Source of the DNA: Pseudovibrio sp. Alg231-02
GTDB lineage: Bacteria; Pseudomonadota; Alphaproteobacteria; Rhizobiales; Stappiaceae
Reading direction: 5' to 3'
Assembly: GCF_900143565.1 (NCBI RefSeq)
Contig: NZ_FREX01000001.1
Coordinates: 133,640 to 197,639, forward strand
DNA: 64,000 nt
Shown here: piece after piece, positions 13,991 through 63,840 of the stretch
How positions within the stretch are numbered: the stretch's first letter is position 1
How the letters are laid out: each line of letters opens with the position of its first letter
The notes under the pieces: generated by a model
What the model saw: the letters and a program-made list of their open reading frames with translations, nothing else
The model's database searches: none
What the model was told of the DNA's origin: nothing
Translations under genes and position numbers: made by a program

Positions 13991-14289
13991 GAGGACATTC
14001 CTTCTCACGCAGGCTTGGATTGTGCTCAGATTATACGCTGTTGTCCTAAGAAAGTCTGGCGTGGTGTTTACGGTTCCTCCTTGTTGCTGTGGGCCGCAGA
14101 ATTAGATCAAGAATAAGAGAAAACCGAACCATTTATCACAACGCATATTTCATCTGGGTCCGTCATAACAATCTGGTGCGCGTGCGCGCGACGACTTGTT
14201 GGAGTGGAGCCTTGCGGAGATGCCATGTGCGTCTGCCCGCTGGTTTTCCTGTTTGAGTACCTCTCATAATTAAGGTGAGTGAACCTCCG
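13991..14289. other. Divergent intergenic region
   Basis: No gene is seen in these 299 bases between the alcohol dehydrogenase start and the coiled-coil protein start. It must carry both promoters. It contains an alternating-purine-pyrimidine stretch (GTGCGCGTGCGCGCG, 14176-14190). I see no convincing hairpin or operator. Confidence 0.4.
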
Positions 14290-44576: not shown

Positions 44577-45590
44577 TTGCCTTGCTTCTGTTTTTGTCCA
44601 GATATCATTCCCGACATCAACCTCAACCTGCTTGTTCCTCTTGTGTTGAAGGCAGGAGAAGCGACGGCTTTGCCACGCATCAAAGGGCCTTCCCTTCGTG
44701 TCACATCCCCCCATCTGTTCATGCGGTTTCGTCCGTTCAACTTCCTGAGCCTTGCGCAACTTTTGGCGTTGAACGCCAGCATCAATCATCGCCTGACCGC
44801 AGCTGCCGACCTGGCTCTTCGGGTGACAGAGTCTGCAACACTTCCCGCTGCCAAGCTAAAACTGAAAAAGCTTGCGCAAACCTCAGCGAAGTTCGCACTC
44901 CCTCTTGCGCTGAAGCTTGGTTCCCTTCCCGGCCATATCCTTGCGAAATTGGGGCTTGCCGCGCAACTCATCCTTCAGATTAAGGGGCTCGGACTGAACC
45001 CGTTTAATCTCAATCTTGGCAAGCTAAATCTCATTCTCCCGAAGGCCAAAATCAATCTGCCTTTGCTTGGGCTCGTTGATCTGGGTCTGAAGCAGAATTT
45101 GAATATGAACGCTCAGGCTGATCTGAAGGCTCTTGCTAAGATGTTGGCTGACTTTGGCAACTGGAACCTTGGCTTCAAGTTCGATTTGAAAGCAGCATTC
45201 AAAATTTTGGCAGCTCTGAACATCATTGGTCTTTTGCAGCTGGCATTTGGCGAAAGTCTTTTCTCAGGAAACGTCAAAGCCTGGGCTCGCATTACTGCAA
45301 AGCTAAGCCTCTTTTCCAGATTGCTGCCCCAGCTGAACCTGAAACTGCCGACAGCTAAAGTGGATCTAAGTGATCTTGACCTGAACATTGGTCAGGCTGA
45401 CTGGCTTCGCAATGCAAACCGCATTTCAATGAGGGCATCTGCACGCGCATCACTTCGAGCATCCGCACGCCTCAATGCGGGTTTATTTGCCCGAACAGAG
45501 GCTGCCATTGGGCTCGCCTATGCCCTCTCCGCAGCTCTTAACATCAAGCCCACGACTAGGTGCTGTAGTCGCTGTGCGTTAATATTCTAA
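44577..45590 (+). CDS. Leu/Ala/Asn-rich protein with cysteine-rich ends, unknown function
   Basis: An unrecognised 337-residue protein translated from a TTG: GAAGGAG lies 10 bases upstream, and the next ATG (44721) would lose the cysteine-rich start MPCFCFCPDIIPDINLNLL. The body is low-complexity and amphipathic, with repeating Leu-Asn-Leu and Leu-Lys-Leu patterns, and short hydrophobic helices (IIGLLQLAFG), then Ala/Arg repeats (RASARASLRASARLNAG). It ends in RCCSRCALIF. Paired CXCXC and CCXXC at the two ends suggest metal binding or disulphides. The 3' end overlaps the convergent kinase gene by 35 bases. Proximity to the T6SS makes an effector role possible; evidence is positional only. Confidence 0.7.
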   Translation: MPCFCFCPDIIPDINLNLLVPLVLKAGEATALPRIKGPSLRVTSPHLFMRFRPFNFLSLAQLLALNASINHRLTAAADLALRVTESATLPAAKLKLKKLAQTSAKFALPLALKLGSLPGHILAKLGLAAQLILQIKGLGLNPFNLNLGKLNLILPKAKINLPLLGLVDLGLKQNLNMNAQADLKALAKMLADFGNWNLGFKFDLKAAFKILAALNIIGLLQLAFGESLFSGNVKAWARITAKLSLFSRLLPQLNLKLPTAKVDLSDLDLNIGQADWLRNANRISMRASARASLRASARLNAGLFARTEAAIGLAYALSAALNIKPTTRCCSRCALIF

Positions 45591-46302
45591 CGCGTTCTTC
45601 AGGCACAAATTTCAGCAGTTGAGTAACCATTTGCCGCCGGTCTGGCGGTAGTTTTCTGAGGTCGGGATTGCTCTGCCGAAACGCAATGGCAGCTTCATAT
45701 GTGTCCTTGATATGATCCCGATTTCCAAACATCTCGCGTATAATCAAGCCGAGTGCATACAGGTCTGCTTTCTCGGTGATTTGATCCGTACCTAACCCGA
45801 GTTGTTCTGGAGCGGCATAGTTCAAATGACCAGTAAAACTGCTACGGGGTCTTATAAACGGCAGTTCATCAGCAAAGGCACAATAGGCAAAGTCCAGAAT
45901 GACTAAGCCATGCTCTCCCTGGTTGCTTAGCATGATATTGTTGGGAGCGAGATCCAGGTGAGCAATCCCTGCGTTATGGAGATGATTGATCGTCAGAACC
46001 AATTGCTTACAGAGTTGGACACATTCTTTTGAGGACAGCAACGCCTTACTCATCTTTTCGGCAAGAGTTTGGCCTTCCACCAACTCCATAATCAACTTGA
46101 TGTTTCCGTCTTCGGCTTTCAGCGCTACAAACTTCGGCGCAATAGTGCCTGACAGACGCTGCAGGGCTTTCGCTTCTCTAAAAAAAAGTTGCTGCGGAGC
46201 AGATGGTGAGATGAGCGTCTTCTCTGCCAACATGCGATTTGTCGACGGGCACTTGTAAAACCTGACAGTGCTTGTTGATGTGTTCTTTGCAGGTTCCAAC
46301 AC
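45556..46302 (-). CDS. Short Ser/Thr kinase-like protein, T6SS-associated
   Basis: A 248-residue protein with a Hanks-type kinase core. Lys28 (AEKTL) and Glu43 are the ion-pair candidates; the catalytic loop is HLDLAPNN (His115, Asp117, Asn122); the metal-binding motif is DFA (Asp137) rather than DFG; NYAAPEQLG is the APE segment. The glycine-rich loop is missing. T6SS clusters of the Agrobacterium and Pseudomonas type use the PpkA kinase with an FHA protein to switch secretion on, and an FHA gene starts at the right edge here. It has no membrane helix, unlike PpkA. It may be a cytosolic kinase or a pseudokinase. Confidence 0.85.
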   Translation of the reverse strand: MLEPAKNTSTSTVRFYKCPSTNRMLAEKTLISPSAPQQLFFREAKALQRLSGTIAPKFVALKAEDGNIKLIMELVEGQTLAEKMSKALLSSKECVQLCKQLVLTINHLHNAGIAHLDLAPNNIMLSNQGEHGLVILDFAYCAFADELPFIRPRSSFTGHLNYAAPEQLGLGTDQITEKADLYALGLIIREMFGNRDHIKDTYEAAIAFRQSNPDLRKLPPDRRQMVTQLLKFVPEERVRILTHSDYST

Positions 46303-46553: not shown

Positions 46554-47603
46554 ATGGATCCAACGGCTTCCCTTCAACCTATTGAGGAGAATGCACCTTG
46601 CGGGCCGGATCTTGAATACGATCCTGACTTCCTGACGATGGAGACTGCTGCCAGTGGCACCCAAGATCACCAGATCGGCGAAGCCATTATCAAAGGGGAA
46701 GAGCCTGACTGGAAGGAAGCGCTGCGCCTCTCCACCCAGCTGCTTACACGGACCTACGATCTTCGCGTTGCCATCATTCACGCACAATCTCTAATTGCAA
46801 TTGAAGGATATCCAGGCTTCGCCAAAGGCATGGATTTCATTGCACAAATGCTGGATTCCTTCTGGGATACGCTGCATCCAGAACTTGATCCTGCAGAGGG
46901 GCATGACCCGATCATGCGTGCGAATGTCCTTTCCGCTCTCAACGACAGACGCACAACGCTTGCTTTGATCAGAAATGCCGCTTTGGTTCAGTCTCGTATC
47001 TTCGGAGCATGGTCTCTCAACGAGATCGCTATTGCCCGCGGGGAGACTGAACTGCCTGATGGTCGTGATAGGCCGGACATTGCCTCTTATGACGCAGCTC
47101 TCAGAGAGACTGATCGCGAAAACATTGCAGAGGTTGTTAATGCAATCGAAACCGCGATCAAAACATCCGAGCATATCAGGGATTTTTTCGCGCAGCACGG
47201 TGGCCTGATCCTTGACGACCTGCTGCGAGAGTTGCGTCAAGCGCAGTTTTTATTGGCTCCAGCACTGGAAATCGAAGAGGAAGAGGAGGAAGAAGAAGGA
47301 GAACCTGACTCTGAGGAAGATGGACCAGTTAAAGCCCGAACAGGTAAGAAAAGCGCAAGTTTTACCGGAACAGTTATAAACCGAACTGACGTGTTAAGGG
47401 CTCTTGATGAAGTTTGTGCGTATTACAAGCGTAGCGAACCTTCAAGTCCGGTTCCACTTCTACTGGGTCGGGCCCGACGTCTTGTTGATCTCGACTTTTA
47501 TTCCATCATCAAGGACCTCGCTCCAGATGGGGAAGCACAAGTTTTGAATATCAGAGGGGTACGCCCCGACGACGATGACGAGCATTCTGGTTCAATCGAA
47601 TAA
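46554..47603 (+). CDS. tssA: T6SS protein TssA (ImpA)
   Basis: A 349-residue TssA/ImpA protein. The N-terminal ImpA_N domain (about 1-200) shows PCGPDLEYDPDFL and the GKDL-like region LRVAIIHAQSLIAIEGYPGFAKG, cited in part. An acidic run of Glu (about 240-265) leads into a short C-terminal domain (NRTDVLRALDEVCAYYKRSEPSSPVPLLLGRA, cited in part). TssA organises baseplate and sheath assembly in the cytosol. First gene of the main T6SS operon. Confidence 0.92.
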   Translation: MDPTASLQPIEENAPCGPDLEYDPDFLTMETAASGTQDHQIGEAIIKGEEPDWKEALRLSTQLLTRTYDLRVAIIHAQSLIAIEGYPGFAKGMDFIAQMLDSFWDTLHPELDPAEGHDPIMRANVLSALNDRRTTLALIRNAALVQSRIFGAWSLNEIAIARGETELPDGRDRPDIASYDAALRETDRENIAEVVNAIETAIKTSEHIRDFFAQHGGLILDDLLRELRQAQFLLAPALEIEEEEEEEEGEPDSEEDGPVKARTGKKSASFTGTVINRTDVLRALDEVCAYYKRSEPSSPVPLLLGRARRLVDLDFYSIIKDLAPDGEAQVLNIRGVRPDDDDEHSGSIE

Positions 47604-47645: not shown

Positions 47646-48179
47646 ATGGCAAAACAAAGTAGTCAGAAATTTATAGCGAGGAACAGAGCCCCTCGAGTGC
47701 AAATTGAGTACGATGTTGAATTGTACGGTGCAGAGAAGACCATCCAGCTGCCTTTCGTGGCTGGCGTGATGGCTGATCTTTCTGGCAAGCCCGAAGATCC
47801 ACTTCCTCCTGTAGGGGATCGCAAAGCCCTTGAGATCGACGTCGACAACTTCGATGAACGCATGAAGTCGATGAAGCCACGTGTGGCATTCCGGGTTCCC
47901 AACACCCTCACAGGCGAAGGCAATCTCAGTGTTGATTTGACCTTCGAGAGTATGGACGACTTTTCTCCAGCAGCTGTTGCCCGCAAAGTAGACGCTTTGC
48001 GTACCTTGCTGGAAGCCCGTACTCAACTTGCAAACCTGATGACCTATATGGACGGCAAGTCCGGTGCCGAGGAGTTGATCGGTAAGGTTTTGAATGATCC
48101 TGCCCTTTTGCAAACACTAGCTGCCACACCGAAGGAAGGTGATGCTGCTGCTGAAGAGAAGGACGAAAATAATGGCTGA
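47646..48179 (+). CDS. tssB: T6SS contractile sheath small subunit TssB
   Basis: A 177-residue VipA/TssB protein that interlocks with TssC to build the sheath. Family segments are RVQIEYDVELYGAEK, LPFVAGVMADLSG and DNFDERMKSMKPRVAF. Length is normal. Its stop overlaps the tssC start by 8 bases. Confidence 0.96.
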   Translation: MAKQSSQKFIARNRAPRVQIEYDVELYGAEKTIQLPFVAGVMADLSGKPEDPLPPVGDRKALEIDVDNFDERMKSMKPRVAFRVPNTLTGEGNLSVDLTFESMDDFSPAAVARKVDALRTLLEARTQLANLMTYMDGKSGAEELIGKVLNDPALLQTLAATPKEGDAAAEEKDENNG

Positions 48180-49677
48180 AGCTGAAAAACAACCGGAAGT
48201 CGAAGCCGAAGAGGCACAGGTTGAAGCTATTGATCCCAATAACTTTGAATCTCTCCTCACTCAAGAATTCAAACCCAAGTCAGACAGCGCAAAAGAAGCC
48301 GTGGAAGGTGCAGTGGCAACACTGGCTGAGCAGGCTTTGGCAAACACGACGCTGATTTCAGACGATACGCTGAAGTCAATCGAGTCAATTGTTGCCGAAC
48401 TTGACCGCAAACTTTCCGAGCAAATTCAAACGATCCTTCACCACGAAGATTTCCAGAGCCTGGAAGGCACCTGGCGCGGACTTCATTATCTCGTCAATAA
48501 TACTGAGACTGACGAAATGCTGAAGATCCGGGTGATGAATATCTCCAAGAAGGAACTGAGTAAGACCCTGAAAAAATACAAGGGTACGGCTTGGGATCAG
48601 AGCCCGGTCTTCAAGAAAATCTACGAAGAAGAATACGGCCAGTTCGGTGGTGAGCCTTATGGTGTGCTGATTGGTGATTACTACTTCGACCATACGCCAC
48701 CAGACGTGGCACTTTTGAACGAAATGGCAGAGATCGCCGCGGCGGCTCATGCTCCGTTCATTGCAGGTGCAAGCCCTAGCCTCTTCCAAATGGAATCCTG
48801 GCAAGAACTCTCAAACCCCCGCGATCTCACCAAAATCTTCCAGACACCAGAATATGCCGCATGGCGATCACTACGAGAATCTGAAGATTCCCGTTATATC
48901 GGTCTTGCAATGCCGCGTTTTCTGGCCCGGTTGCCTTATGGCCCGCTTACTGAGCCAGTGGATGAGTTTGATTTTGAAGAGGACACATCAGGTGCCTCCT
49001 CCTCAAAGTACGTCTGGTCCAATTCTGCTTTTGCAATGGCAACCAATATCACCCGTTCATTCAAAATGTACGGCTGGTGCTCCCGCATCAGAGGTGTTGA
49101 ATCTGGTGGCGCTGTTGAAGGTCTACCCTCACATACGTTCCCAACGGATGACGGCGGCGTGGACATGAAGTGTCCAACTGAGATTGCTATCACTGACCGC
49201 CGTGAAGCTGAACTTGCAAAGAATGGCATGATGCCATTGTTACACCGAAAGAATTCAGACTTAGCCGCGTTCATTGGCGCACAGTCTTTGCAGAAACCAG
49301 CAGAGTATACGGACCCTGATGCGACAGCAAATGCGAACCTTGCAGCTAGGTTACCTTACTTATTTGCAAGTTGTCGGTTCGCTCATTATCTAAAATGTAT
49401 TGTTCGAGACAAGATTGGCTCGTTCAAAGAACGTCAGGATCTTCAGAACTGGCTGCAAGATTGGATCATGCGTTACGTAGATGGCGATCCTGCAGGCTCC
49501 AGTGAGCAGACAAAGGCGGAAAAGCCTTTGGCGTCAGCCGAAGTGGTCGTCGAAGCCGACGATTCAAACCCAGGCTACTACAGCGCGAAGTTCTTCCTGC
49601 GTCCTCATTACCAGTTAGAAGGTCTGACGGTTTCCTTGCGACTGGTTTCAAAGCTTCCGTCAGCCAAGGGAGGATAA
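48172..49677 (+). CDS. tssC: T6SS contractile sheath large subunit TssC
   Basis: A 501-residue VipB/TssC protein. Signature segments are ILHHEDFQSLEGTWRGLHYLV, the WDQSPVFKKIYEEEYGQFGGEPYGVLIGDYYFDH region (cited in part) and FLARLPYG. The C-terminus ends FFLRPHYQLEGLTVSLRLVSKLP, the conserved part recognised by ClpV and neighbours. The ATG at 48172 overlaps tssB by 8 bases; an earlier in-frame ATG at 48139 is unlikely. Confidence 0.97.
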   Translation: MAEAEKQPEVEAEEAQVEAIDPNNFESLLTQEFKPKSDSAKEAVEGAVATLAEQALANTTLISDDTLKSIESIVAELDRKLSEQIQTILHHEDFQSLEGTWRGLHYLVNNTETDEMLKIRVMNISKKELSKTLKKYKGTAWDQSPVFKKIYEEEYGQFGGEPYGVLIGDYYFDHTPPDVALLNEMAEIAAAAHAPFIAGASPSLFQMESWQELSNPRDLTKIFQTPEYAAWRSLRESEDSRYIGLAMPRFLARLPYGPLTEPVDEFDFEEDTSGASSSKYVWSNSAFAMATNITRSFKMYGWCSRIRGVESGGAVEGLPSHTFPTDDGGVDMKCPTEIAITDRREAELAKNGMMPLLHRKNSDLAAFIGAQSLQKPAEYTDPDATANANLAARLPYLFASCRFAHYLKCIVRDKIGSFKERQDLQNWLQDWIMRYVDGDPAGSSEQTKAEKPLASAEVVVEADDSNPGYYSAKFFLRPHYQLEGLTVSLRLVSKLPSAKGG

Positions 49678-49810: not shown

Positions 49811-50341
49811 ATGTCAATTGATGCATATGTAATCTTCGAGGGGCCCGGTGCCGGTGCTATCGCCATTGAAGGCGAAACACAAGATGACGAAATGGCCAAA
49901 AAAAAGGCTTTCGAAATCGCCACTTTCAGCATGGGTGCTGAAAACACTATGGACATCGGTTCCATGCGTGGCGGTTCTGGCGCTGGTCGCGTGAAGTTTA
50001 AAGAATTCCAGATTGAAAAGAAAAGTGACCGCGGTTCGCCAGGCCTTTTCCTTGCTTGTTGTAACGGTGGTATTTACGAGACCGTGACACTTTTGCTTCG
50101 CCGTTCAGGTGGTGCATCCGGTAAGGCTGGTGTGATCTTCCTTACCTTCACAATGAAGCTGGTTGCCATCAAGGAAATCAGCTGGGAAGGTAACGACGAA
50201 GAGTGTAAAGAATCCATCCAGATGGAATACGGTGCTGTTCAGATTGATTACACCATGATGGATACCACTGGTGCGATGGGCAAGACACTTACCGAAAAGT
50301 GGAGCCGCATCAAGAATACTCGCGACCTCGTCGTCAAATAA
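49811..50341 (+). CDS. hcp: T6SS tube protein Hcp
   Basis: A 176-residue Hcp that forms hexameric rings of the inner tube and can carry small effectors. MSIDAYVIFEGPGAGAIAIEGET and the FKEFQIEKKSDRGSPGLFLACC region are typical. A 133-base gap after tssC and a hairpin right after the stop suggest a separately tuned transcript, as Hcp is needed in large amounts. Confidence 0.95.
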   Translation: MSIDAYVIFEGPGAGAIAIEGETQDDEMAKKKAFEIATFSMGAENTMDIGSMRGGSGAGRVKFKEFQIEKKSDRGSPGLFLACCNGGIYETVTLLLRRSGGASGKAGVIFLTFTMKLVAIKEISWEGNDEECKESIQMEYGAVQIDYTMMDTTGAMGKTLTEKWSRIKNTRDLVVK

Positions 50342-50423: not shown

Positions 50424-51275
50424 ATGCCTGCGAAGGAACATCTAGCCACAGGTAATTTACAAGAAGCGCTCAAGATCACTCAGGAGCAAGTGCGAAAAAA
50501 GCCTGAGGACGTAAAAGAACGCATCCTCCTTTTCCAGCTCTATTGCGTCAATGGAGACTGGCTCAAAGCCAAAAAACAACTTCCAATCATCCGGCAGTTT
50601 GATGAAAGTGCTGTGCCTATGGTGGAGACTTATTCCCGCTTGCTGGATATGGAGCAATTGCGCGAAGAAGTCTTTTCAGGTGACAAGACGCCCCTGCTCT
50701 TTGGCGAACCCAAAGAATGGCTTTCTTTCCTGGTTCAAGCCCTCAAGTTCGATAGTGAGAAGAACGAACAAGCGGCAATTGAGCTTCGGGATAAAGCCTT
50801 TGAAGAAGCAGACGCTATTTCTGGAACCATCAATGGTGAAAAGTTCGAGTGGCTGGCAGATGCCGATCCGCGACTTGGCCCCGTTCTTGAGCTTATGATG
50901 AGCAACGCCTATTACTGGGTTCCGTACTCCGCAATCAAATCCATCAGAATTCCAGAGCCTCGTGATCTGCGGGACATGTGCTGGACACCTGTGAACCTTC
51001 TTTGGGTCAATGGTGGCCCTGCAAATGGTTTCATTCCAACACGTTACGTTGAGACTGTTCATTCAGACGACCCAAACCTCAAGCTTTCCCGTTTAACTAC
51101 CTGGAACGAAGACAGACCGATCGGGCAACGTATGTTTGCGCATGAAAGCGCAGAGATCCCTCTGCTTGAGGTGCGAGCGATCAACTTTGACACTGAACTG
51201 GATATTCATAAGGACATCGGCCCCGTAACGGGCGCAGATGATGCCGCATCTTCAACGGAGGGAGGCCATGGCTGA
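50424..51275 (+). CDS. tagJ: T6SS accessory protein TagJ (ImpE/SciE)
   Basis: A 283-residue ImpE-family protein. The N-terminal TPR-like part (HLATGNLQEALKITQEQVRKKPEDV, cited in part) leads to the C-terminal VPYSAIKSIRIPEPRDLRDMCWTP region typical of ImpE. TagJ binds TssB and is linked to sheath recycling by ClpV. It overlaps tssE by 8 bases. Confidence 0.92.
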   Translation: MPAKEHLATGNLQEALKITQEQVRKKPEDVKERILLFQLYCVNGDWLKAKKQLPIIRQFDESAVPMVETYSRLLDMEQLREEVFSGDKTPLLFGEPKEWLSFLVQALKFDSEKNEQAAIELRDKAFEEADAISGTINGEKFEWLADADPRLGPVLELMMSNAYYWVPYSAIKSIRIPEPRDLRDMCWTPVNLLWVNGGPANGFIPTRYVETVHSDDPNLKLSRLTTWNEDRPIGQRMFAHESAEIPLLEVRAINFDTELDIHKDIGPVTGADDAASSTEGGHG

Positions 51276-51774
51276 ACGCCCTCTTGCTGATCGGTTGGTC
51301 CCGTCTTTGTTGGATCGTCTTACAGATGACAACCCGTTTCAGCAGGTGGAGCCTCGCGAAGCCCGTGTCACCAGTTCGGTTAATCTTCGGTATTCCATTC
51401 AACGTGATTTGGAGTGGCTTTTTAACACAACCCGCCTGGCATCAGACATTGATTTGGCACCCTATCCCGAAGTCCAGTCCTCCGTCTTAAATTTTGGAAT
51501 TCCAGACCTAGGCGCGATGACAAGCAAAAGTGCTGAAGAGATTGAAGACATCTTGCATGAGGCAATCGTACATTTCGAGCCTCGCCTTATCGCAGATAGT
51601 CTTTTGGTTTCTATCGTTGAACCTAATAAGCCACGCCGCTCCAATCGTCTGGACTTCCAGATTGAAGGGCAGTTGTGGTCCCAACCTTTGCCACAAGCCT
51701 TGTACCTGCGCACTGAGTTCGACCTTGATGTGCATGCGGTGCAAATAGCTAAACCGCGCCAGCGAGGTTCTTGA
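51268..51774 (+). CDS. tssE: T6SS baseplate protein TssE
   Basis: A 168-residue gp25-like baseplate subunit. SVNLRYSIQRDLEWLFNTTR with a later NFGIPDLGAM and IVHFEPRL (the EPR motif) are the gp25 hallmarks. The ATG at 51268 follows GGAGG within the end of tagJ. Confidence 0.94.
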   Translation: MAERPLADRLVPSLLDRLTDDNPFQQVEPREARVTSSVNLRYSIQRDLEWLFNTTRLASDIDLAPYPEVQSSVLNFGIPDLGAMTSKSAEEIEDILHEAIVHFEPRLIADSLLVSIVEPNKPRRSNRLDFQIEGQLWSQPLPQALYLRTEFDLDVHAVQIAKPRQRGS

Positions 51775-51775
51775 C

Positions 51776-53653
51776 ATGAAGCCTTGGCTGCTTCCGTATT
51801 ACAACAGAGAATTACAGCATATTCGCGAAAGTGCCTCTGAATTTGCAGAGGCTTACCCCAAAGTCGCCGGACGTCTTGGGTTGAGCGGTTTCGACTGTGC
51901 AGATCCGTACGTTGAGCGTCTTCTGGAAGGCTTTGCGTTCTTAACCGCGCGTGTTCAATACAAGCTGGACGCCCAATTCCCTCAGTTTACGCAGCACCTT
52001 CTGGAAATGGTGTATCCTCACTTTCTGGCGCCAGTTCCATCCATGCTTATCGCAAGTTTGGAGCCGGATATGACGCAAGGCTCCCTGAAGGATGGGTATG
52101 TGATCCCTCGCGGAACGCAGTTACGCAGCCGCAAGAGTGCCCGCGGAGCGACGCCTTGCATCTATAACACTGCCCATGAAACAACCCTTTGGCCAATTAC
52201 GATAGAGGCCATCGATTATCTGGCGAGCCCAAGTGAACTGGCCGCTCAAAAGGTTGAAGTGAAAAATGGAGCAAAAGCTGGACTTCGTATTCGACTGAAA
52301 ACGGTTGGCAACATCCCGTTTAATGAGCTCGCACTGGACGAACTGCCGCTGTACCTGCGCGGTGGAGGCTCGCAACCGGTGAAGCTTTATGAGCAAATCA
52401 TCGGCAATTGCACTGGCGTTTCGATCCGTCCAACAAGTTTGCCTACTCCCTGGGAAATCAGTCTGTCCCCCGAGATCGTGAATACGCGTGGGTATGGAGA
52501 TGAAGATGCGCTTCTTCCTTATGGTCCACAATCCTTCAGCGGGTACCGTCTGTTGCAGGAGTACTTCGCATTTCCGCATCGTTTCCTGTTTGTTGAACTG
52601 ACCAATCTGCAACCTGCCGTTCGTCAATGCGAGACGGATGAAATGGATATCTTCCTGCTCTTTGATCGGATTGACAAAGATCTGGAACGTGCTGTTGATC
52701 GCGCCAACATCTCATTGTTCTGCACGCCCGCAATCAACCTGTTCTCAACGCGCCTTGACCGTTTGCATATCAACGATAAGCGCAGCGATCATCATGTGGT
52801 GCCAGACAGATCGAAACCGCTCGACTACGAGATTTATCAGTTACAAGAGGTTGAAGGGTTCAGCTCGCAAGGCGATGCCCCACAGATCTTCAAGCCGTTC
52901 TACAGCCTATCAAGTACACAAGACTTACAAAGTGAAGGCGCCTATTACACGGTAAATCGCAAACAGCGGCTTGCGACGGCCAAACGCCAGATGACAGGTG
53001 GGCGGAGTAATTATCTTGGCACTGAAATTTTTGTCAGTCTCGTAGATGCGAAAGATGCTCCCTATAATCTGGCACTCAACCAGCTGGGCATCCGCGCACT
53101 TTGCACAAACCGGGATCTGCCATTGATGATGCCGATTGGTGCGGGAAAGTCGGATTTCTCCCTTCCGGAAGGTGGGCCAGTTGAAGCGGTCAAATGCATT
53201 GATGGTCCTAGTCGCCCACGTCCCTCAAACATCTTTGGTGAGACCGCATGGCGTTTCATCAATCATCTCTCACTGAATTACCTCAGCATTGCAGACAACA
53301 ACGATACAGATGGTGCACAAGCGCTGCGTTCCATCCTACATTTGTATGCGCCACTGGGTGACAGTTCCACAACACAACAGATCGACGGCGTACGCTCGAT
53401 CAAATCCACACGAGCTGTTCGCCGCCTCCCCGGACAAGGCCTTTCATCCGTGGCGCGCGGACTTGAGCTCAACATTACGCTTGATGAAGCTGCCTTTGAA
53501 GGCACGGGTGTGTTCTTGCTTGGTGCTGTGCTCAATGAGTTCTTTGCTCGTTACGTTTCGATCAACAGCTTCACCGAGACAGTGATCAGATCCAACGTAC
53601 GCGGTGAAGTGATGCGCTGGCCCTGCCAGATCGGGAGGCGTCACAGATTATGA
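51776..53653 (+). CDS. tssF: T6SS baseplate protein TssF
   Basis: A 625-residue TssF (ImpG/VasA). The N-terminus LLPYYNRELQHIRESASEFAEAYPKVAGRL, cited in part, and PHFLAPVPSMLIASLEPD are strong family segments. It forms wedges with TssE, TssG and TssK. One base separates it from tssE and its end overlaps tssG by four. Confidence 0.96.
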   Translation: MKPWLLPYYNRELQHIRESASEFAEAYPKVAGRLGLSGFDCADPYVERLLEGFAFLTARVQYKLDAQFPQFTQHLLEMVYPHFLAPVPSMLIASLEPDMTQGSLKDGYVIPRGTQLRSRKSARGATPCIYNTAHETTLWPITIEAIDYLASPSELAAQKVEVKNGAKAGLRIRLKTVGNIPFNELALDELPLYLRGGGSQPVKLYEQIIGNCTGVSIRPTSLPTPWEISLSPEIVNTRGYGDEDALLPYGPQSFSGYRLLQEYFAFPHRFLFVELTNLQPAVRQCETDEMDIFLLFDRIDKDLERAVDRANISLFCTPAINLFSTRLDRLHINDKRSDHHVVPDRSKPLDYEIYQLQEVEGFSSQGDAPQIFKPFYSLSSTQDLQSEGAYYTVNRKQRLATAKRQMTGGRSNYLGTEIFVSLVDAKDAPYNLALNQLGIRALCTNRDLPLMMPIGAGKSDFSLPEGGPVEAVKCIDGPSRPRPSNIFGETAWRFINHLSLNYLSIADNNDTDGAQALRSILHLYAPLGDSSTTQQIDGVRSIKSTRAVRRLPGQGLSSVARGLELNITLDEAAFEGTGVFLLGAVLNEFFARYVSINSFTETVIRSNVRGEVMRWPCQIGRRHRL

Positions 53654-54810
53654 CCGGCTCGCAAACACCACCTCCCCCCGGCTCATCTGGCCCACCCAAA
53701 CCACGCGATGGGCAAGGCGCATTGCCCGTACCGGTTAAAGCAGACGTAACGCCTGAAGTTCGGTGGAAGCAGCGTTTGCGCTCGGCTGAGAAAGATTACC
53801 TCAGTTACGAATTTTTGCCTTTGGTGCGGCTTATTGAGTGTTCTAACCCGGATATGCCTCGGATCGGAACGTCACGACGCTGTCAGGATGATCCTGTTCG
53901 ATTTTCTCATGAACCGCATTTGCAGTTTGAAGCCTCAACAATAACGGCATTCAAGCAAGGTGTTGGAACAAACCCATGCCGACTAACCAGCCGGTTTTTA
54001 GGGCTATTTGGACCCAACGGTCCAATGCCGCTTCATCTGACTGAGTATGCCTTTAAGCGGGAACATCAACACCGCGACACCACTATGCGTGCATTCGCGG
54101 ATGTCTTTCACCACCGTATCCTGAGCTTATTTTACCGCGCGGCGATTACGGGAGAGCCCGCGTTCAGCTTTGATCGCCCCGAACAAGACCGGTATTCGAT
54201 CTATACCGGAGCGCTCGCGGGATTTGGACCAACTGAGTTTCGGCATCGTGATGATCTGCCGGATGTGGTGAAGTACCACTTCGCTGGCCGTCTCGCCTTG
54301 CAAACGCGCGGGGCTGATGGATTGCTGGCTATTTTGAGCTGTTACTTCAACCTTCCTGTGGCTCTGGAAGAGTTTATCGGAGAATGGCTGTATCTACCCA
54401 AAAATCAAGTGACGGCCCTCAACGGCTTTCGCAATGCCGGGCTTCTCGGTGTTGGAGCTGCACTGGGGGGGCGTGTTTGGTCCAGCGACACAAAGTTCCG
54501 TGTGGCGTTCGGTCCTCTGAGCTTACGTGACTATGAAGGTCTGCTTCCTGATGGTGTTTCCATGCCGCGTTTGCTTTCAGCCGTCAGAGCCTATTGCGGC
54601 GATGAACTGGAGTGGGATGTGGCTCTTGTCCTTAAGCGCAATCAGGTGCCGACTACCCGGCTTGGACAATATGGAAAGCTTGGCTGGACCACCTGGTTGT
54701 CTCCTAAAAAACAAGGCGATCCGGTCCGAGATCTCAATTTACGCCCACGACAAGTCACTGAAAAATCAAAAGCATCTGTTCACAACAACAATCGTGCGAA
54801 GGCTGCCTAG
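53650..54810 (+). CDS. tssG: T6SS baseplate protein TssG
   Basis: A 386-residue TssG (ImpH/VasB). After a Pro-rich N-terminus of about 35 residues come FEFLPLVRLIE-like YEFLPLVRLIE, LTSRFLGLFGPNGPMPLHLTEYA (cited in part) and the C-terminal TRLGQYGKLGWTTWL. Its start overlaps tssF by four bases. Slightly longer than usual at both ends. Confidence 0.95.
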   Translation: MTGSQTPPPPGSSGPPKPRDGQGALPVPVKADVTPEVRWKQRLRSAEKDYLSYEFLPLVRLIECSNPDMPRIGTSRRCQDDPVRFSHEPHLQFEASTITAFKQGVGTNPCRLTSRFLGLFGPNGPMPLHLTEYAFKREHQHRDTTMRAFADVFHHRILSLFYRAAITGEPAFSFDRPEQDRYSIYTGALAGFGPTEFRHRDDLPDVVKYHFAGRLALQTRGADGLLAILSCYFNLPVALEEFIGEWLYLPKNQVTALNGFRNAGLLGVGAALGGRVWSSDTKFRVAFGPLSLRDYEGLLPDGVSMPRLLSAVRAYCGDELEWDVALVLKRNQVPTTRLGQYGKLGWTTWLSPKKQGDPVRDLNLRPRQVTEKSKASVHNNNRAKAA

Positions 54811-54818
54811 GAGTTCCC

Positions 54819-57500
54819 ATGAGTGATATCAAACGAGCGTCCCTCTTCGGTAAATTGAATCCGACCTGCTATCAGGCAATCGACAGCGCTACGACCTTTT
54901 GTAAGATGCGCGGCAATCCTTATGTGGAGTTGGAGCACTGGTTCCAGCAGTTGTTGAGCGGTCAAGATTCAGATCTGCACCGCATCTTGCGGGATGCAGA
55001 GATCGATGAGGCCCGGCTCGCAAGTGATCTCACCAAAGCCTTGGACAAGTTGCCTCGAGGAGCCAGTTCAGTCAGCGATCTGTCTCAGCACGTGGAAGAG
55101 GCCGTTGAACGCGGTTGGGTTTATGCCACTTTGATGTTTGGTGATAATGCCATCCGCAGCGGTTACCTTCTGATTGGCATCCTAAAGACCCCGGGCCTTC
55201 GCAATACGCTCTTTGGCATTTCGCGTCTGTTTGAGAACATTTCAGCCGATGATGTTGCGACACGATACAAAAAGATCACAGAGGGCTCTCCTGAAGAGGG
55301 AAAAGCCAAGGATGGAACGCAACTTGATGCTGGCGAACAGAAAGCCACTGCTCCGGGGCTAAAGTCAGCTGATGAGGCGTTAGACGCCTATTGCACAGAC
55401 ATCACGGCAAAAGCAAAAGCTGGACAGCTGGATCCGGTTATTGGCCGTGAAGAAGAAATTCGCCAGATCATCGATACGCTGATGCGCCGTCGTCAAAACA
55501 ATCCGATCCTAACTGGTGAAGCGGGTGTTGGTAAAACGGCAGTGGTCGAAGGTTTAGCCATCCGCATTGCAGAGGGCGACGTGCCCCCATCCATCAAAGA
55601 TGTGCGCGTTCTGTTGCTTGATGTCGGGTTATTGCAGGCTGGTGCTGGCGTAAAAGGCGAATTTGAAGATCGCCTTCGCAAGATACTGGATGCGGTGCGT
55701 TCCTCTGTGCAACCGATCATCCTGTTCATTGATGAAGCTCACACGCTCATTGGTGCAGGCGGTGCTGCGGGAACCGGTGATGCAGCCAACCTCTTGAAGC
55801 CAGCCCTTGCCCGTGGTGAGCTTAGGACGATCGCAGCAACAACCTGGTCTGAGTACAAGAAGCACATTGAGAAGGACCCTGCCCTTGCTCGCCGCTTCCA
55901 GAACATTTTGGTCGAAGAACCAGATCCAGACAAAGCCGTTGCAATCATGCGCGGTGTAGCTGCGATGCTTGAAGAGCATCATCAGGTCCAGATTCTAGAT
56001 GAAGCGCTTGAGGCTGCCGTACATTTGTCTATGCGTTTTATTCCAGCACGGCAGCTGCCAGATAAGGCAATCAGCCTGATTGATACAGCGTGTGCCCGTG
56101 TTGCTCTTTCACAGCATGCGACCCCAGCCGCTGTAGACGACTGCCGTAAGCGTCTCGTTATGATTGAGACAGAACGAGATATCCTTGAACGAGAGGCGCA
56201 GTCCGGGTTTGATGTCGGAGACAAGCTAACTGACGTGCACAAGAAGCTTGCAGAGCTTGAGAAAGAACGCGAGGCTCTTGAAGCAGAATGGCTGAAAGAG
56301 CAATCACTTGTCACAGAAATTCTCAAGCTGCGTGAGGTGTTCCGCCAGACCAATGGAGATGAGAATGCAGATACGGCTCCAATCAAGAAAGAGCTGGATC
56401 AGAAACTTGAGGAACTGACCGAACTTCAAGGTGAGCATCCCCTCATTCTTCCTGAAGTAGATAGCCAAGCTGTCGCAACGATTGTTTCTGACTGGACGGG
56501 TATCCCAACCGGGCGCATGGTCTCTAACGAGATTAAGACTGTGTTGCATCTGAGCGATATCCTCAGGAAACGGATCATCGGTCAGGATCACGCCATGGAG
56601 GTGATCGCTCGCCGCGTAAAAACCTCCCGTGCTAATCTTGATAACCCAAGTCGCCCTATTGGTGTGTTCCTTCTGGTTGGACCAAGTGGGGTTGGTAAAA
56701 CCGAGACAGCCTTAGCGCTTGCAGAGACCCTTTATGGCGGTGAGCAGAACCTTATTACCATCAACATGAGTGAGTTTCAGGAGTCCCATACAGTCTCCAC
56801 GCTCAAGGGCTCTCCTCCAGGTTATGTAGGCTACGGTGAAGGCGGCGTTTTGACGGAAGCTGTGCGCCGCAGACCTTACAGCATTGTGTTGCTGGATGAG
56901 GTTGAGAAAGCCCACCCTGATGTGCACGAACTCTTCTTTCAGGTCTTCGACAAGGGCATGATGGAGGACGGCGAAGGCCGGAAGATCAACTTCAAGAACA
57001 CTTTGATCCTGCTGACCGCCAATGTAGGCAGTGACCTCATTTTGGATATGTGCGCAGACGAAGATCTGACACCGGATCCAGAGGGAATTGCCAAGGCTTT
57101 AAGACCCCCACTCCTGAAGGCCTTTCCAGCCGCCCTTTTAGGCCGGCTTGTAACTGTGCCTTATTATCCTCTGAGCTCTCCTGTCATTCATAAGATTATC
57201 AATCTGCAACTTGGCCGGATTGGTGATCGTATCCTTGAAAACCACAATGTGACGTTCACTTGGGATGACTCAGTTGTTGCTTTGATTGAGAGCAGGTGCG
57301 CGGAAATTGAGAGTGGTGGTCGTATGATCGATGCGATCCTGACCAACACCCTTCTCCCGGATATCAGTACAGAGTTCCTTAAGAACATGAGTGAAGACAA
57401 GAAGATCACAGAACTCAAGGTTCTGACTGATGGTGATGCATTTGACTACAAGTTCAAGAAGTCACCTGTGGCTAAAAAAGATAAACACAAGAAGAAATAG
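54819..57500 (+). CDS. clpV: T6SS sheath-disassembly ATPase TssH (ClpV)
   Basis: An 893-residue AAA+ ATPase that disassembles contracted sheaths. An N-terminal Clp_N domain (1-160) is followed by NBD1 with Walker [14 protein letters not shown] and Walker [14 protein letters not shown], a coiled-coil middle domain (about 430-530), and NBD2 with [14 protein letters not shown] and [17 protein letters not shown] in the NBD1 loop is ClpV-like rather than ClpB-like. It ends in a Lys-rich tail. The next gene starts 130 bases later. Confidence 0.96.
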
Positions 57501-57630
57501 GCCCTTCACAGACCATTCAGATAAATCTGAAAGCAAAATCAAAACATAGTCTTATTACTTTTTTTACCACAGAAACTAACTGAAACAAAACACGTCGGAA
57601 CTACTTTTCCAAGTGACGAGGAGTCCAACG

Positions 57631-58518
57631 ATGCAGAAAGTTAAACAATCGGCGAGGAGACGGTCGACACGCATTCCTGCGTGGCGTCTTACTTTGCGCC
57701 GTATTGTTCGTTCTGATACCTTTCAGTACACCTTTCTCATCTTGATTGTTGTCAACGCCATCAGCTTGGGTCTGGCGACGTCTCCTTCCGTGCGACGCTT
57801 GACCGGTGATGGTCAGATCATTTTTGACGATGTGATTATCGGACTTTTCATCTTGGAATTTGTTCTGAAAATCATGGCGTTTGGCACGCGGTTTTTCAAA
57901 AGCTGGTGGAACATCTTCGACATTTCAGTGGTTAGCTTCTCACTGCTCCCACAGTCGGGTTATCTCAGCGTTCTGCGTGCCCTTCGGGTTATGCGGGCCA
58001 TGCGTGTCCTGTCCTTCCTGCCACAATACCGGCAAGTGATGCAGGCGTTGTTGGACGCATTGCCTGGCATGTTCTCCGTGATGATCGTTCTGGCGCTGAT
58101 TTATTATGTGTTTGCGGTGATGGCGACTGGCCTGTTCGGCGCAAGCTTCCCGGACTGGTTCGGAGACATTGGCCGATCCTTGTACTCGCTGTTCCAGATC
58201 ATGACGTTAGAGAGCTGGTCCATGGGGATCGTGCGTCCCGTAATGAAGATCTATCCCTACGCCTGGGCTCTTTTCATACCCTTTATCTTCCTGACTGCAT
58301 TTGCGGTACTCAACCTGTTTATCGGTCTGATCGTCAGCTCCATGCAAGGCATCTATCAGGAAGAACACAGTGAAGACGTCGAACGCCTTCGCCTCCTCGT
58401 ATCCGCAGAAAACCGTGCAATCGCCGCTCAATTGGAAGCTGCGCAGTTACAGGTAATCAAAACCCTCGAACGTCTTGAGGACCAGATAGAAACCAATAAG
58501 AGAGATTCTGATGAGTGA
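57631..58518 (+). CDS. Voltage-gated sodium channel (BacNav/NaChBac family)
   Basis: A 295-residue six-helix ion channel subunit expected to form a tetramer in the inner membrane. S1-S3 span about residues 31-107. S4 has four arginines at every third position (116, 119, 122, 125). The pore loop carries TLESWSMG (192-199), the Na+-selective filter of NavAb/NavMs-type channels. S6 is about 208-238, and a coiled-coil tail follows (about 245-290), as in BacNavs. The ATG at 57631 has GAGGAG 7 bases upstream. It is inside the T6SS cluster, and its stop overlaps the next gene by 8 bases, so it is translationally coupled to the TssB-TssC fusion. I know of no standard T6SS role for such a channel. Confidence 0.93.
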   Translation: MQKVKQSARRRSTRIPAWRLTLRRIVRSDTFQYTFLILIVVNAISLGLATSPSVRRLTGDGQIIFDDVIIGLFILEFVLKIMAFGTRFFKSWWNIFDISVVSFSLLPQSGYLSVLRALRVMRAMRVLSFLPQYRQVMQALLDALPGMFSVMIVLALIYYVFAVMATGLFGASFPDWFGDIGRSLYSLFQIMTLESWSMGIVRPVMKIYPYAWALFIPFIFLTAFAVLNLFIGLIVSSMQGIYQEEHSEDVERLRLLVSAENRAIAAQLEAAQLQVIKTLERLEDQIETNKRDSDE

Positions 58519-60499: not shown

Positions 60500-60520
60500 C
60501 AATTGATAATGGAGTTTCAA

Positions 60521-60802
60521 ATGGCTGAACTCATTGAGATAGAAGAAGTACCTGAGATTTACGTCATGGAGTACGGCGGCAACTATTATCTTGTTCGCGG
60601 CGCCGCTTACCTTGACCAAATCCTGTTTGGCAAAGAGCCACTCAGCTTCCCCGTACTCATCAAATCCGTCAAAACCTGGGATGAGGTTCTCGTGAATTGG
60701 GAGAATACCGGGGGCTCCATGCCCTGGATCCTCAATCCCAGCATTGTTGAACGGATGGAACGAGACAATCGCAAACTGACCTCAGACAGCTTCAACGCCT
60801 GA
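60521..60802 (+). CDS. Small T6SS-cluster protein of unknown function
   Basis: A 93-residue acidic protein beginning MAELIEIEEVPEIYVMEYGG, with no signal peptide. ATG 60521 has GGAG six bases upstream; an in-frame ATG at 60503 adds six residues. It contains PVLIKSVKTWDEVLVNW and ends with a polar tail. I do not recognise it. It lies between the TssB-TssC fusion and vgrG, a place where VgrG adaptors or chaperones are often found. Confidence 0.8.
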   Translation: MAELIEIEEVPEIYVMEYGGNYYLVRGAAYLDQILFGKEPLSFPVLIKSVKTWDEVLVNWENTGGSMPWILNPSIVERMERDNRKLTSDSFNA

Positions 60803-60842: not shown

Positions 60843-62951
60843 ATGTGTGCGAGCAAAGTAACTGAAAATCGGCTGTTCACGATCAGCTTCGATGGTGGAG
60901 ATGACAGCTTCCACCTTTGGAAGATGAAGATGACCAGCGAAATGAGTGAGCTCTACGAAATGGTCGTAGATTGCCGATCATTCGAGCATGACCTGAGCCT
61001 TGATAAGATGCTTGGGCAGACGCTTACGCTTGAAATGAAAAAAGTGTCCGGCACAAGCCTGTCTTCTGACCAGTATCTGAATGGGTTTGTAACCAAGGCC
61101 ATCTATACGGGACAAGATCATGGCTATTCAACTTACCGGCTTATTGTACGCCCGTGGCTTTGGTTTTTGACCCTCACCAGCAATTGCCGGATCTTCCAGG
61201 AAAAGTCGACGCCAGACATCTTGAAAGAAGTCTTTCAGGAAGCAGGTTTTACTGACTTCAAAAACAAGCTGAGTGACAGTTATGATCCCCGGCCCTATTG
61301 CGCTCAGTTTCAAGAAACCGACTTCAACTTTATCTGCCGCCTGATGGAGCAGGAAGGGATCTATTATTACTTTGAGCATGAGGACGGTCAACACACCATG
61401 GTATTGGCAGATTCCTATAGCGCTCATGAAGACATCAAAGGCGAGTCCAGCCTTCCCTTTTATTCTGAGGAAGACCATTTCCGTCGCGGAGCTGATCACT
61501 TTTGGGATTGGCGACACAATGAAGAGATCCAGACAGATGAAGTTGAAATCAATGACTACGATTTCACTAAGCCCACGAGTGATTTGAAAGCTAATGCTAG
61601 CGAAAAGAAGTCCCACCAGCTTTCTGGCCGCACGCGTTACATGTATCCAGGCCATTACGAGGAAGTCAGTGTAGGTGAAAAGCGAGCCAAGGTGCGCGTT
61701 GAAGAAGCCAGTGCGGCTTATGCCAAGGTATATGCTCGCGGCAACGTCCGTGGATTGCGACCCGGATACCTTTTCAAATTGGATCAGTTTTCAGACGACC
61801 CAAGTCAAGAAAAAGAATACCTGATCACGAAGGCGATCTGTGAGGTCTCAATCGAGTTTGCGCGCGATGAAGAGCAGGAATTTTATGACGCAATCACCTA
61901 CGAGATTGAGGCGGTCGATTCCAGCGTTCAATACCGTAAAGCCTCTACTACACCCTGGCCTAATATGAACGGGTTGCAGTCCGCAGTTGTTACTGGCGCG
62001 GATGGTGAAGAGATCTGGACCGATGAGTATGGCCGGATCAAGGTGCAGTTCCATTGGGATCGTGACGGACAGAACGATGACAAATCTTCTTGCTGGGTGC
62101 GTGTAGCGCAAATGTGGGCTGGTAAAGGTTGGGGTGGTCTCCACATTCCCCGTGTTGGGCAGGAAGTCCTCGTTGATTTCTTAGATGGTGATCCCGACCG
62201 ACCTATTGTTGTGGGCAGTGTTTACAATGGAGAGCAGACTGTTCCTTATGACCTGCCCGGTGAAGCCACAAAGTCTACGCTTAAGAGCGAGACATCCAAG
62301 GAAGGCGGCGGGAACAACGAGTTCTTGTTTGAAGACAAGAAAGATGAGGAACTCGTTCAGCTCACAGCTGAGAAGGACTACGAGCGCACCGTTAAAAACA
62401 ATGAAACCGTCAAGATTGGTTTCGACAAGCAAGAAGATGGTGACCAGACAATCGAGGTCTATAACAATCGCAGTCTGACGGTTGATCAGGGTGACGAGAC
62501 CTACACCATCAAGACCGGTGGCCGAACCACAACCGTCGAAAAAGACGATGCCCTCTCAGTCAAATCTGGCAACCATACAATCACAGTTGAGAGCGGCGAC
62601 CAGAGCATCTCTATGAAGCAAGGTGCGCAGACTGTTGAAGCCATGAAAGACATCGGTGTGACCTCGCAAACCGGCGATGTGAAAGTGGACGCATCTGCTG
62701 GATCGGTGAAGGTCTCCGGAACTCAAGCCATTGAGCTCACCTGTGGTGGCAGCTCGATCAAAATGGATCCCATGTCCATCACCCTCACCGCTGGCCCCAG
62801 CTCTCTCAAACTCGAAGCCGCTCAGGCTGAGCTGAAAGGCTTGATGGTGACCGTAAAGGGTGATGTTCAGGCGACCGTTGACGGGACATTGACCACCTTA
62901 AAGGGTGCTGGCATCACGACGGTACAAGGTGCTCTCGTCAAGATTAACTGA
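60843..62951 (+). CDS. vgrG: T6SS spike protein VgrG
   Basis: A 702-residue VgrG. The gp27-like N-terminal part (about 1-390) has YCAQFQETDFNFICRLMEQEGIYYYFEHE, cited in part. The gp5-like OB-fold has EIWTDEYGRIKVQFHWDRDG and CWVRVAQMWAGKGWGGLHIPRVGQEVLVDFLDGDPD, cited in part. A beta-helical needle follows to the C-terminus (repeats of the S-I-T-V-x-x-G kind). No enzymatic extension is present, so the effector is likely a separate protein. Confidence 0.95.
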   Translation: MCASKVTENRLFTISFDGGDDSFHLWKMKMTSEMSELYEMVVDCRSFEHDLSLDKMLGQTLTLEMKKVSGTSLSSDQYLNGFVTKAIYTGQDHGYSTYRLIVRPWLWFLTLTSNCRIFQEKSTPDILKEVFQEAGFTDFKNKLSDSYDPRPYCAQFQETDFNFICRLMEQEGIYYYFEHEDGQHTMVLADSYSAHEDIKGESSLPFYSEEDHFRRGADHFWDWRHNEEIQTDEVEINDYDFTKPTSDLKANASEKKSHQLSGRTRYMYPGHYEEVSVGEKRAKVRVEEASAAYAKVYARGNVRGLRPGYLFKLDQFSDDPSQEKEYLITKAICEVSIEFARDEEQEFYDAITYEIEAVDSSVQYRKASTTPWPNMNGLQSAVVTGADGEEIWTDEYGRIKVQFHWDRDGQNDDKSSCWVRVAQMWAGKGWGGLHIPRVGQEVLVDFLDGDPDRPIVVGSVYNGEQTVPYDLPGEATKSTLKSETSKEGGGNNEFLFEDKKDEELVQLTAEKDYERTVKNNETVKIGFDKQEDGDQTIEVYNNRSLTVDQGDETYTIKTGGRTTTVEKDDALSVKSGNHTITVESGDQSISMKQGAQTVEAMKDIGVTSQTGDVKVDASAGSVKVSGTQAIELTCGGSSIKMDPMSITLTAGPSSLKLEAAQAELKGLMVTVKGDVQATVDGTLTTLKGAGITTVQGALVKIN

Positions 62952-62959
62952 GGCGCATT

Positions 62960-63553
62960 ATGGAAAATAGCGTGACAAATACTACACTGCTCCTCAACTC
63001 CTACAAGGATCTACTGGAGAAGAGACCTTTAGAACTTGGAGATGAAGCAGTACCATTGATAGAGGGACAGAAGCCTTCTATCGAAGTTGTGGATACCTTG
63101 GCAGAAGCGGAGCTCATGTCTGATGCCATTAAGGTTCTCGCTCACGCCCTGAGTAAACCACGCGCAGTGTGGTGGGCCAGTCAAGTCAGCAGAGCTACTT
63201 TTCCGGAAGGCAGTCAACCACCCGATGAAGACGAAATAGCGCTGAAAGCCGCCGAAGACTGGGTCCGCAAACCCGAAGAAGACCTGCGCCGTGCAGCAAT
63301 GAAAATTGCTGATGACGGAGGATATAAAAGCGCCGCTTCTCTTGCCGCGGCAGCGGCTGGTTGGAGTGGCGGTAGTATGGGATCTCCCGAATTTGACCCT
63401 GCACCTCCCCCAGAAAACCTAACTAGTATTGCTGTAGGGTCATCTATAGTTTTGTCTGTATACGACAGTAACGTGGAGGACCCTGAAGAGTTCTTAGTCA
63501 AAGCTTACAAGTTGGGACGAGCACTCGCAGATAATGAAATAGAGGCCCTATGA
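62960..63553 (+). CDS. T6SS-linked protein between VgrG and PAAR (DUF6931-like)
   Basis: A 197-residue soluble protein. DAIKVLAHALSKPRAVWWASQVSRA (about 48-72, cited in part) is the most conserved-looking part and fits my memory of DUF6931, a family found in T6SS clusters, though I cannot confirm it. An Ala-rich helix (AAMKIADDGGYKSAASLAAAAAGW, cited in part) follows, then a Pro-rich stretch. It starts 8 bases after vgrG and overlaps the PAAR gene by four, so it belongs to the spike module and may be an adaptor. Confidence 0.82.
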   Translation: MENSVTNTTLLLNSYKDLLEKRPLELGDEAVPLIEGQKPSIEVVDTLAEAELMSDAIKVLAHALSKPRAVWWASQVSRATFPEGSQPPDEDEIALKAAEDWVRKPEEDLRRAAMKIADDGGYKSAASLAAAAAGWSGGSMGSPEFDPAPPPENLTSIAVGSSIVLSVYDSNVEDPEEFLVKAYKLGRALADNEIEAL

Positions 63554-63840
63554 GTTTCCCAGCAGCACGCATGACAGACATGCACGTCTGTCCAATGGTG
63601 ACCGGTATCGTTCCTCACGTTGGAGGCCCGATATCTCTTGGAGCACCGACGGTTTTGATCGGAAACTTACCAGCGGCGCGCATGACTGACATGTGCGTGT
63701 GTGTTGGGCCTCCAGATACAATTATGAAAGGCAGTGTCACCACTTTGATCGCCGGATTGCCGGCGGCGCGTATGCTGGATGTCACTGCTCACGGCGGCAC
63801 CATCATCCTTGGCTGGCCCACAGTTTTAATCGGGGGCTGA
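63550..63840 (+). CDS. PAAR-domain spike-tip protein
   Basis: A 96-residue PAAR protein that sharpens the VgrG spike. Three Pro-Ala-Ala-Arg motifs are visible (SFPAARMTDMHVCPM, NLPAARMTDMCVC and GLPAARMLDVTAHGG), with Cys and His positioned to bind zinc at the tip. No effector domain is attached. Its start overlaps the preceding stop (ATGA). Confidence 0.95.
   Translation: MSFPAARMTDMHVCPMVTGIVPHVGGPISLGAPTVLIGNLPAARMTDMCVCVGPPDTIMKGSVTTLIAGLPAARMLDVTAHGGTIILGWPTVLIGG

Follow-up and report, generated by a model that had tools for sequence, protein, structure and literature searches.

The window, by which we mean the whole 64,000-nucleotide stretch of Pseudovibrio sp. Alg231-02 DNA analyzed here, carries a gene for a BacNav-type voltage-gated sodium channel inside a complete type VI secretion system (T6SS) cluster (Table 1). 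The gene lies between clpV and the gene for a sheath-like fusion protein, and its last 8 bases are also the first 8 of the fusion gene; both neighbors and the overlap are as a sequence-only reading of the locus had described them. Profiles recognize all 13 core components of a T6SS in the cluster (TssA, B, C, E, F, G, H, I, J, K, L and M, together with Hcp), with tssJ, tssK, tssL and tssM located downstream of the PAAR gene, beyond the window (L077). By gene content the cluster is a T6SS, and secretion activity is predicted.

Table 1. The T6SS cluster in the window, in order along the DNA, with profile matches or sequence features
Feature	Coordinates	Strand	Match or features
tssA	46554..47603	+	ImpA_N E 3.2e-31
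tssB	47646..48179	+	T6SS_VipA E 2e-58
tssC	48169..49677	+	TIGR03355 721 bits
hcp	49811..50341	+	T6SS_HCP E 7.3e-21
tagJ/impE	50424..51275	+	ImpE E 7.1e-36
tssE	51238..51774	+	GPW_gp25 E 2.8e-19
tssF	51776..53653	+	T6SS_TssF E 1.4e-229
tssG	53650..54810	+	T6SS_TssG E 3.8e-96
clpV/tssH	54819..57500	+	TIGR03345 1257.9 bits
BacNav-type voltage-gated sodium channel, 295 aa	57631..58518	+	S1-S6, four S4 Arg, TLESWSMG filter, helical tail
Sheath-like single-chain TssB-TssC-like protein, 662 aa	58511..60499	+	acidic ends, C-terminal MDPELEALLADL
Small conserved ORF	60503..60802	+	no Pfam/NCBIfam match; kept in 7 genus clusters
vgrG/tssI	60843..62951	+	TIGR03361 597.6 bits
DUF6931 protein	62960..63553	+	PF22011 E 4.4e-41
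PAAR protein	63550..63840	+	PAAR_motif E 4.9e-23

Other genes accompany the cluster. A protein-kinase-like gene (window 45556-46302, - strand; Pkinase E 1.6e-29) runs on the opposite strand within it, and a cytochrome P450 gene (41909-43294; E 4.5e-61) stands at its upstream edge; each occupies the same place in 7 of 7 genus clusters compared, the P450 gene being split by a frameshift in one (G005). Farther upstream, window positions 14275-17046 encode a 923-aa protein that falls in no Pfam family and shares 35% identity, along its entire length, with a 916-aa ORF (L077:7593-10343) at the distal end of the cluster, ~47 kb away; the two may belong to a T6SS-linked family. A promoter scan of the + strand in the clpV–channel interval found no promoter. 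The stretch before the channel start (~57560-57640) is, by eye, strikingly alike in five Pseudovibrio genomes and recognizable even where the channel has decayed or been lost, and is a possible control site.

The window channel has a six-transmembrane ion-transport domain with the BacNav fold, regularly spaced S4 arginines (R116, R119, R122 and R125) and a TLESW-type filter, TLESWSMG, bearing out the earlier claim of an intact S4 sensor and sodium-channel filter. It resembles NavMs, NavAb and NaChBac in fold, in its four S4 arginines, in the TLESWSMG-type filter and in its helical tail. The gene encodes an intact channel of BacNav type, for which Na+ conduction is predicted. It is set apart from these BacNavs by belonging to a clade that is tied to T6SS clusters and that has its own S4-S5 residues (PQxRxVxxALLDALPGM) and neck residues.

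The protein encoded directly behind the channel falls below the NCBIfam equivalog cut-offs for TssB and TssC proper (TIGR03355, 157.1 bits vs 271.5; TIGR03358, 21.7 vs 97.25), passes the looser Pfam cut-offs and has the contractile sheath fold, as judged by its structural match to sheath subunits. The single-chain sheath proteins of contractile phages and extracellular injection systems are among the closest known systems. Agrobacterium TssC40, which accompanies TssC41 (PMC3702570), likewise adds a non-redundant TssC-like protein to a true TssB and TssC; the fusion, comparable to it in this respect, differs in combining TssB-like and TssC-like parts in one chain, in its acidic extensions and in its position next to a channel.

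The placement of the channel recurs well beyond the window. We took the nearest 80 BacNav loci of named genomes, from a set of more than 80, chosen by similarity to the T6SS-linked query. Twenty of these 80 lie in a T6SS cluster, a proportion that is not a frequency because the loci were picked by their similarity to a linked channel. The linked channels come from Leisingera, Ruegeria, Phaeobacter, Sulfitobacter, Pseudosulfitobacter, Roseobacter, Cribrihabitans, Defluviimonas, Szabonella, Halocynthiibacter, Pseudovibrio and several MAGs. The other 60 have no T6SS cluster in their flanks (up to 10 kb, with several contigs shorter), which rules out that just any BacNav may adjoin a T6SS; one of these unlinked loci (L158) contains a single short TssL match, in an OmpA-type stretch. 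In a tree of 94 rows, all 23 T6SS-linked channels fall on one side of a single branch (SH-aLRT 96) and the 71 unlinked channels on the other, so that the linkage label changes once, compared with a mean of 20.6 changes when labels are shuffled. This tree was built by a quick method and midpoint-rooted for drawing; its 71 unlinked rows include one duplicate, as L002 and L003 are the same paralogue of the window genome, and the second own paralogue was left out. Unlinked BacNavs from genomes that also carry a linked one fall outside the T6SS-linked clade. The sequence-only reading had proposed that the link would be accidental if homologues lay mostly outside T6SS clusters. This holds for BacNavs at ~45-55% identity, as 60 of the nearest 80 loci show no T6SS cluster in their flanks, and fails for the orthologous clade, in which 23 of 23 tree rows are linked.

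Public annotation of plasmids gives a similar picture. Among 39 plasmid records with a BacNav match, eight were examined, and in seven an "ion transporter" is flanked by a sheath gene and by a hypothetical gene that follows tssH; in the eighth (Peteryoungia, H23) the BacNav is not part of a T6SS. In many clusters of other genera, one or two lysine-rich genes of no known identity are found between clpV and the channel (for example L087:8666-9901, L084:7004-9907, L081:7773-9971 and L250:178-1374), and Pfam returned nothing above its cut-offs for seven proteins from such clpV–channel gaps.

A survey of 295 genomes from 294 genera of one family (f48, treated as Rhodobacteraceae given the likeness of its channels to named loci from that family) separates the clade sharply. 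The channel profile scores at least 414 bits in 29 genomes and at most 373 in the remaining matches listed, and the fusion profile has matches in 32, none weaker than E 1.2e-202. Channel and fusion occur together in 28 genomes, and in 25 of these they share contig and strand; in the other three (G343, G388 and G529) contig ends interrupt the pair, and the channel is nevertheless followed immediately by the fusion's N-terminal TssB part. TssC (E 1e-100 or better) is present in 72 of the 295 genomes, and these include every one of the 29 with a clade channel; in the 223 genomes without TssC, no clade channel was found. The earlier proposal that a link between BacNav and sheath genes be sought in other genomes is thus answered positively, with 29 of 29 clade genomes TssC-positive and 28 of 29 having the fusion adjoining, a linkage beyond chance. 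The junction itself is tight, as at 23 of the 29 loci the following gene has a start codon that overlaps the channel stop and at four more its start lies 1, 7, 43 or 52 bases past it, with L234 ambiguous (for L228 and L240-L243 the next-gene ATG was taken from the printed start). The one clade channel without a fusion (L250, in genome G461) sits between a lysine-rich gene and vgrG.

In four of the 32 fusion genomes the channel is missing. In G376, G487 and G561 clpV is followed directly by the fusion, and in G474 one gene of no known identity lies between them. On a tree of the fusion core with 37 rows (31 with and 6 without an intact channel), the channel label needs five changes, at least four of them on starred branches. 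Together with the single origin on the channel tree, this points to repeated loss: the channel was lost about five times while the T6SS cluster survived. Hence, with four of 32 fusion genomes lacking the channel, a decayed copy in one Pseudovibrio genome (G008) and a remnant in another (G006), it is not required in every such T6SS and is at most an accessory component.

Wider sampling adds little to the clade. In a class survey of 240 genomes the sole further fusion-like match (G208, E 6.1e-89) has no channel beside it, and the top non-clade channel score, 386.9 bits (G270, L164), falls inside the 373-414 gap seen in the family and has no T6SS gene adjoining. Neither the 29 further best-matching loci of the class survey nor the 24 best-matching loci of the family and phylum surveys have a T6SS gene within 1.5 kb. 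A phylum survey of 299 genomes found no clade channel besides the window's own. The clade tree and the co-occurrence with TssC and the fusion across the family rule out chance or a local oddity of this genome.

Within Pseudovibrio, 61 genomes (the window's own and 60 relatives) were compared. Some BacNav match is present in 50 of them and a strong fusion match in seven, four of which (G000, G015, G009 and G002) have an intact channel between clpV and the fusion. In G005 the channel is split by a frameshift, and since its P450, tssA, tssB and fusion ORFs are frameshifted too, assembly quality appears to be the reason. The copy in G008 is decayed, with ~74% identity and residues 149-256, which hold the pore, missing, and in G006 tblastn finds no channel, just the first and last few codons being left by eye. 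Compared with the window gene, the three other intact channels give dN/dS values of 0.005, 0.026 and 0.044, next to 0.005, 0.025 and 0.021 for tssC and 0.008, 0.017 and 0.020 for clpV; the G008 remnant gives 0.30. Such values are rough where dS is near or above 1. Strong purifying selection acts on the intact Pseudovibrio channel, at a level similar to that on core T6SS genes, and the low dN/dS where it is intact, together with its decay and loss elsewhere in the genus, indicates that it is selected for yet dispensable.

The window genome contains three BacNav matches, all on the same contig (C8), two of them unlinked to T6SS; its second T6SS region, on contig C5, has no BacNav. The two unlinked genes stand in tandem (L075:9161-11348, ~909-911 kb on C8), away from any T6SS gene, with the filter TLESWSMG in one and TLEGWSDA in the other. 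In CavMr the glycine at filter position 4 is the Ca2+ determinant (PMC7041947), so that the TLEGWSDA paralogue, which has a glycine there, may not be a plain Na+ channel.

Residues peculiar to the clade were sought by comparing 53 clade channels with 122 others. The four S4 arginines and the TLESWSMG filter are invariant among the 53, and the filter is kept in all 29 family-survey loci. Eleven marker positions, at which one residue reaches at least 90% in the clade and is rare outside (120, 127, 132, 142, 233, 237, 241, 242, 249, 253 and 257), map to lower S4, the S4-S5 linker, the S6 end and the neck; the Pseudovibrio rows, including the window, depart from the clade majority at 237, 241, 242 and 249. 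When divergence was scored in a second way, segments 120-146 and 232-262, which make up 58 of 241 columns, contained 15 of the 20 most divergent ones (p 6.5e-7), these segments having been drawn after the first result was seen. Clade-specific residues thus lie mostly at the predicted cytoplasmic gate and neck, with sensor and filter unchanged. Across 16 loci, channel distances track those of ClpV (r 0.895) and of the fusion (r 0.914), with none of 2000 permutations as high, as core genes also track one another.

The acidity of the fusion tail may vary with the presence of the channel. The median charge per residue of its C-terminal tail is -0.279 where the channel is present (n=31) and -0.155 where it is absent, lost or decayed (n=6), in a set compiled without G517 and G005 (raw Mann-Whitney p=0.0004 for four absent and two lost or decayed; p 0.003 for the four channel-absent genomes alone). 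Tail minus core also differs (p 0.0046), with p 0.22 for the core alone. In four phylogenetically independent pairs the difference is never reversed, in a test too small for significance, as none of the three thresholds tried was able to reach 0.05. This correlation is a weak hint, and the sole one, that Na+ rather than movement is the signal.

Collectively, the data support well the conclusion that the genomic link between channel and T6SS is real, old and maintained, because all 23 clade rows of the channel tree lie in T6SS clusters and all 29 clade channels of the family come from genomes with TssC, 28 standing directly before the fusion. The conserved unit is channel plus sheath-like fusion, and it belongs to one T6SS subtype. 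This conserved pairing, the intact sensing and conduction residues and the clade features facing the cytoplasm lead us to read the channel as an input device. On balance we lean, without strong confidence, toward a T6SS-dedicated voltage-gated Na+ channel that serves a distinct alphaproteobacterial subtype of T6SS as an accessory component in the inner membrane and feeds membrane potential or Na+ entry to the machine, probably by way of the acidic sheath-like fusion. The tetrameric channel would sit near the firing apparatus and open upon depolarization; its gating movement or the local Na+ influx would be read by the cytoplasmic, acidic fusion, and this readout would license, time or withhold sheath assembly or firing, so that the weapon would be tuned to membrane potential or Na+. 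Counted against such a dedicated channel are the four of 32 fusion genomes without it, its decay in G008 and remnant state in G006, the G461 channel without a fusion, the four of 11 marker positions at which the window protein departs from the clade majority, and the two unlinked BacNavs of the window genome. A more specific form, which we regard as speculative, is an electrically triggered weapon, in which depolarization, for example by a rival's attack, would open the channel at the T6SS base and the polyanionic stretches of the fusion would act as an ion-sensitive tether licensing assembly or firing.

Other functions could underlie the same arrangement. The channel might serve ion flow or protection at the firing site, letting in Na+ or equalizing charge under the strain of assembly, firing or attack and with no signaling to the sheath. 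Its location within the machinery genes and the filter and gating residues intact in 53 of 53 clade members would fit such a role, which we nevertheless hold to be unlikely, as it leaves unexplained both the kept sheath-like neighbor (28 of 29) and the clade residues at the cytoplasmic gate and neck. Among the three roles that the sequence-only reading had proposed, self-protection against a pore-forming effector is the least favored because the gene sits among machinery genes. Improbable, in our view, is a channel that is only a scaffold, anchoring the fusion to the membrane with conduction irrelevant: the conserved pairing with a cytoplasmic sheath-like protein and the long helical tail suit an anchor, which would need neither the TLESWSMG filter found in 29 of 29 survey loci nor the four S4 arginines of all 53 clade channels. 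We give similarly little credence to a passenger, inserted once in an ancestral cluster and kept for a T6SS-unrelated function or by operon inertia. The single origin on the 94-row tree and the roughly five losses, with the T6SS surviving each time, are what such a passenger would leave. Set against this, the junction is kept in 28 of 29 clade genomes, each of a different genus and with ClpV down to ~60% identity, while surrounding genes were gained and lost, and unlinked BacNavs are common in the same genomes, yet no clade member occurs in the 223 TssC-less genomes. Least credible is a delivered toxin, by which the channel would be T6SS cargo that depolarizes a target, in the manner of known pore-forming effectors (T6SS effectors that form ion channels are on record, PMC6889166 and PMC12169545), since effector cargo is disfavored by gene position (in 28 of 29 survey loci the channel precedes the sheath-like gene rather than following vgrG or PAAR) and by conservation across genera, with very low dN/dS and no immunity candidate recognized beside the channel. 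Ssp6 (PMC6889166) and Tse4 (PMC12169545) have in common with the window channel a T6SS and ion flow across a membrane; they are delivered toxins, in contrast to a conserved neighbor of machinery genes.

The cluster is very probably the Pseudovibrio T6SS-II of Romano et al. 2016 (PMC4811931), which has hcp, vgrG and all 13 core genes in the genus. Its main text has no match to the word "channel", the T6SS-II passages mention none, and shared genes not assigned to the T6SS are drawn grey. A term search of the available text of PMC4811931, PMC3806328, PMC4337385, PMC13098142 and PMC5959193 found no link between BacNavs and T6SS, nor did the titles and opening lines of abstracts listed in literature searches yield a report joining a BacNav and a T6SS cluster.

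What leads cells to fire a T6SS at a given moment is an open question. Natural roles of BacNavs are, to our knowledge, little known outside alkaliphilic Bacillus (cf. PMC4225499). With a channel clade that descent ties to a single T6SS subtype, BacNav roles and T6SS firing control both become directly testable in culturable marine strains. If the electrically triggered reading were true, this would be the first case of a secretion machine equipped with a voltage-gated ion channel of its own, and if gating controls firing, it would be a voltage-controlled bacterial weapon, loosely parallel to voltage-coupled secretion and contraction in animal cells. The T6SS genes of many marine bacteria, across dozens of genera, include a dedicated voltage-gated Na+ channel beside a sheath gene, which suggests that voltage or Na+ may help control the weapon.
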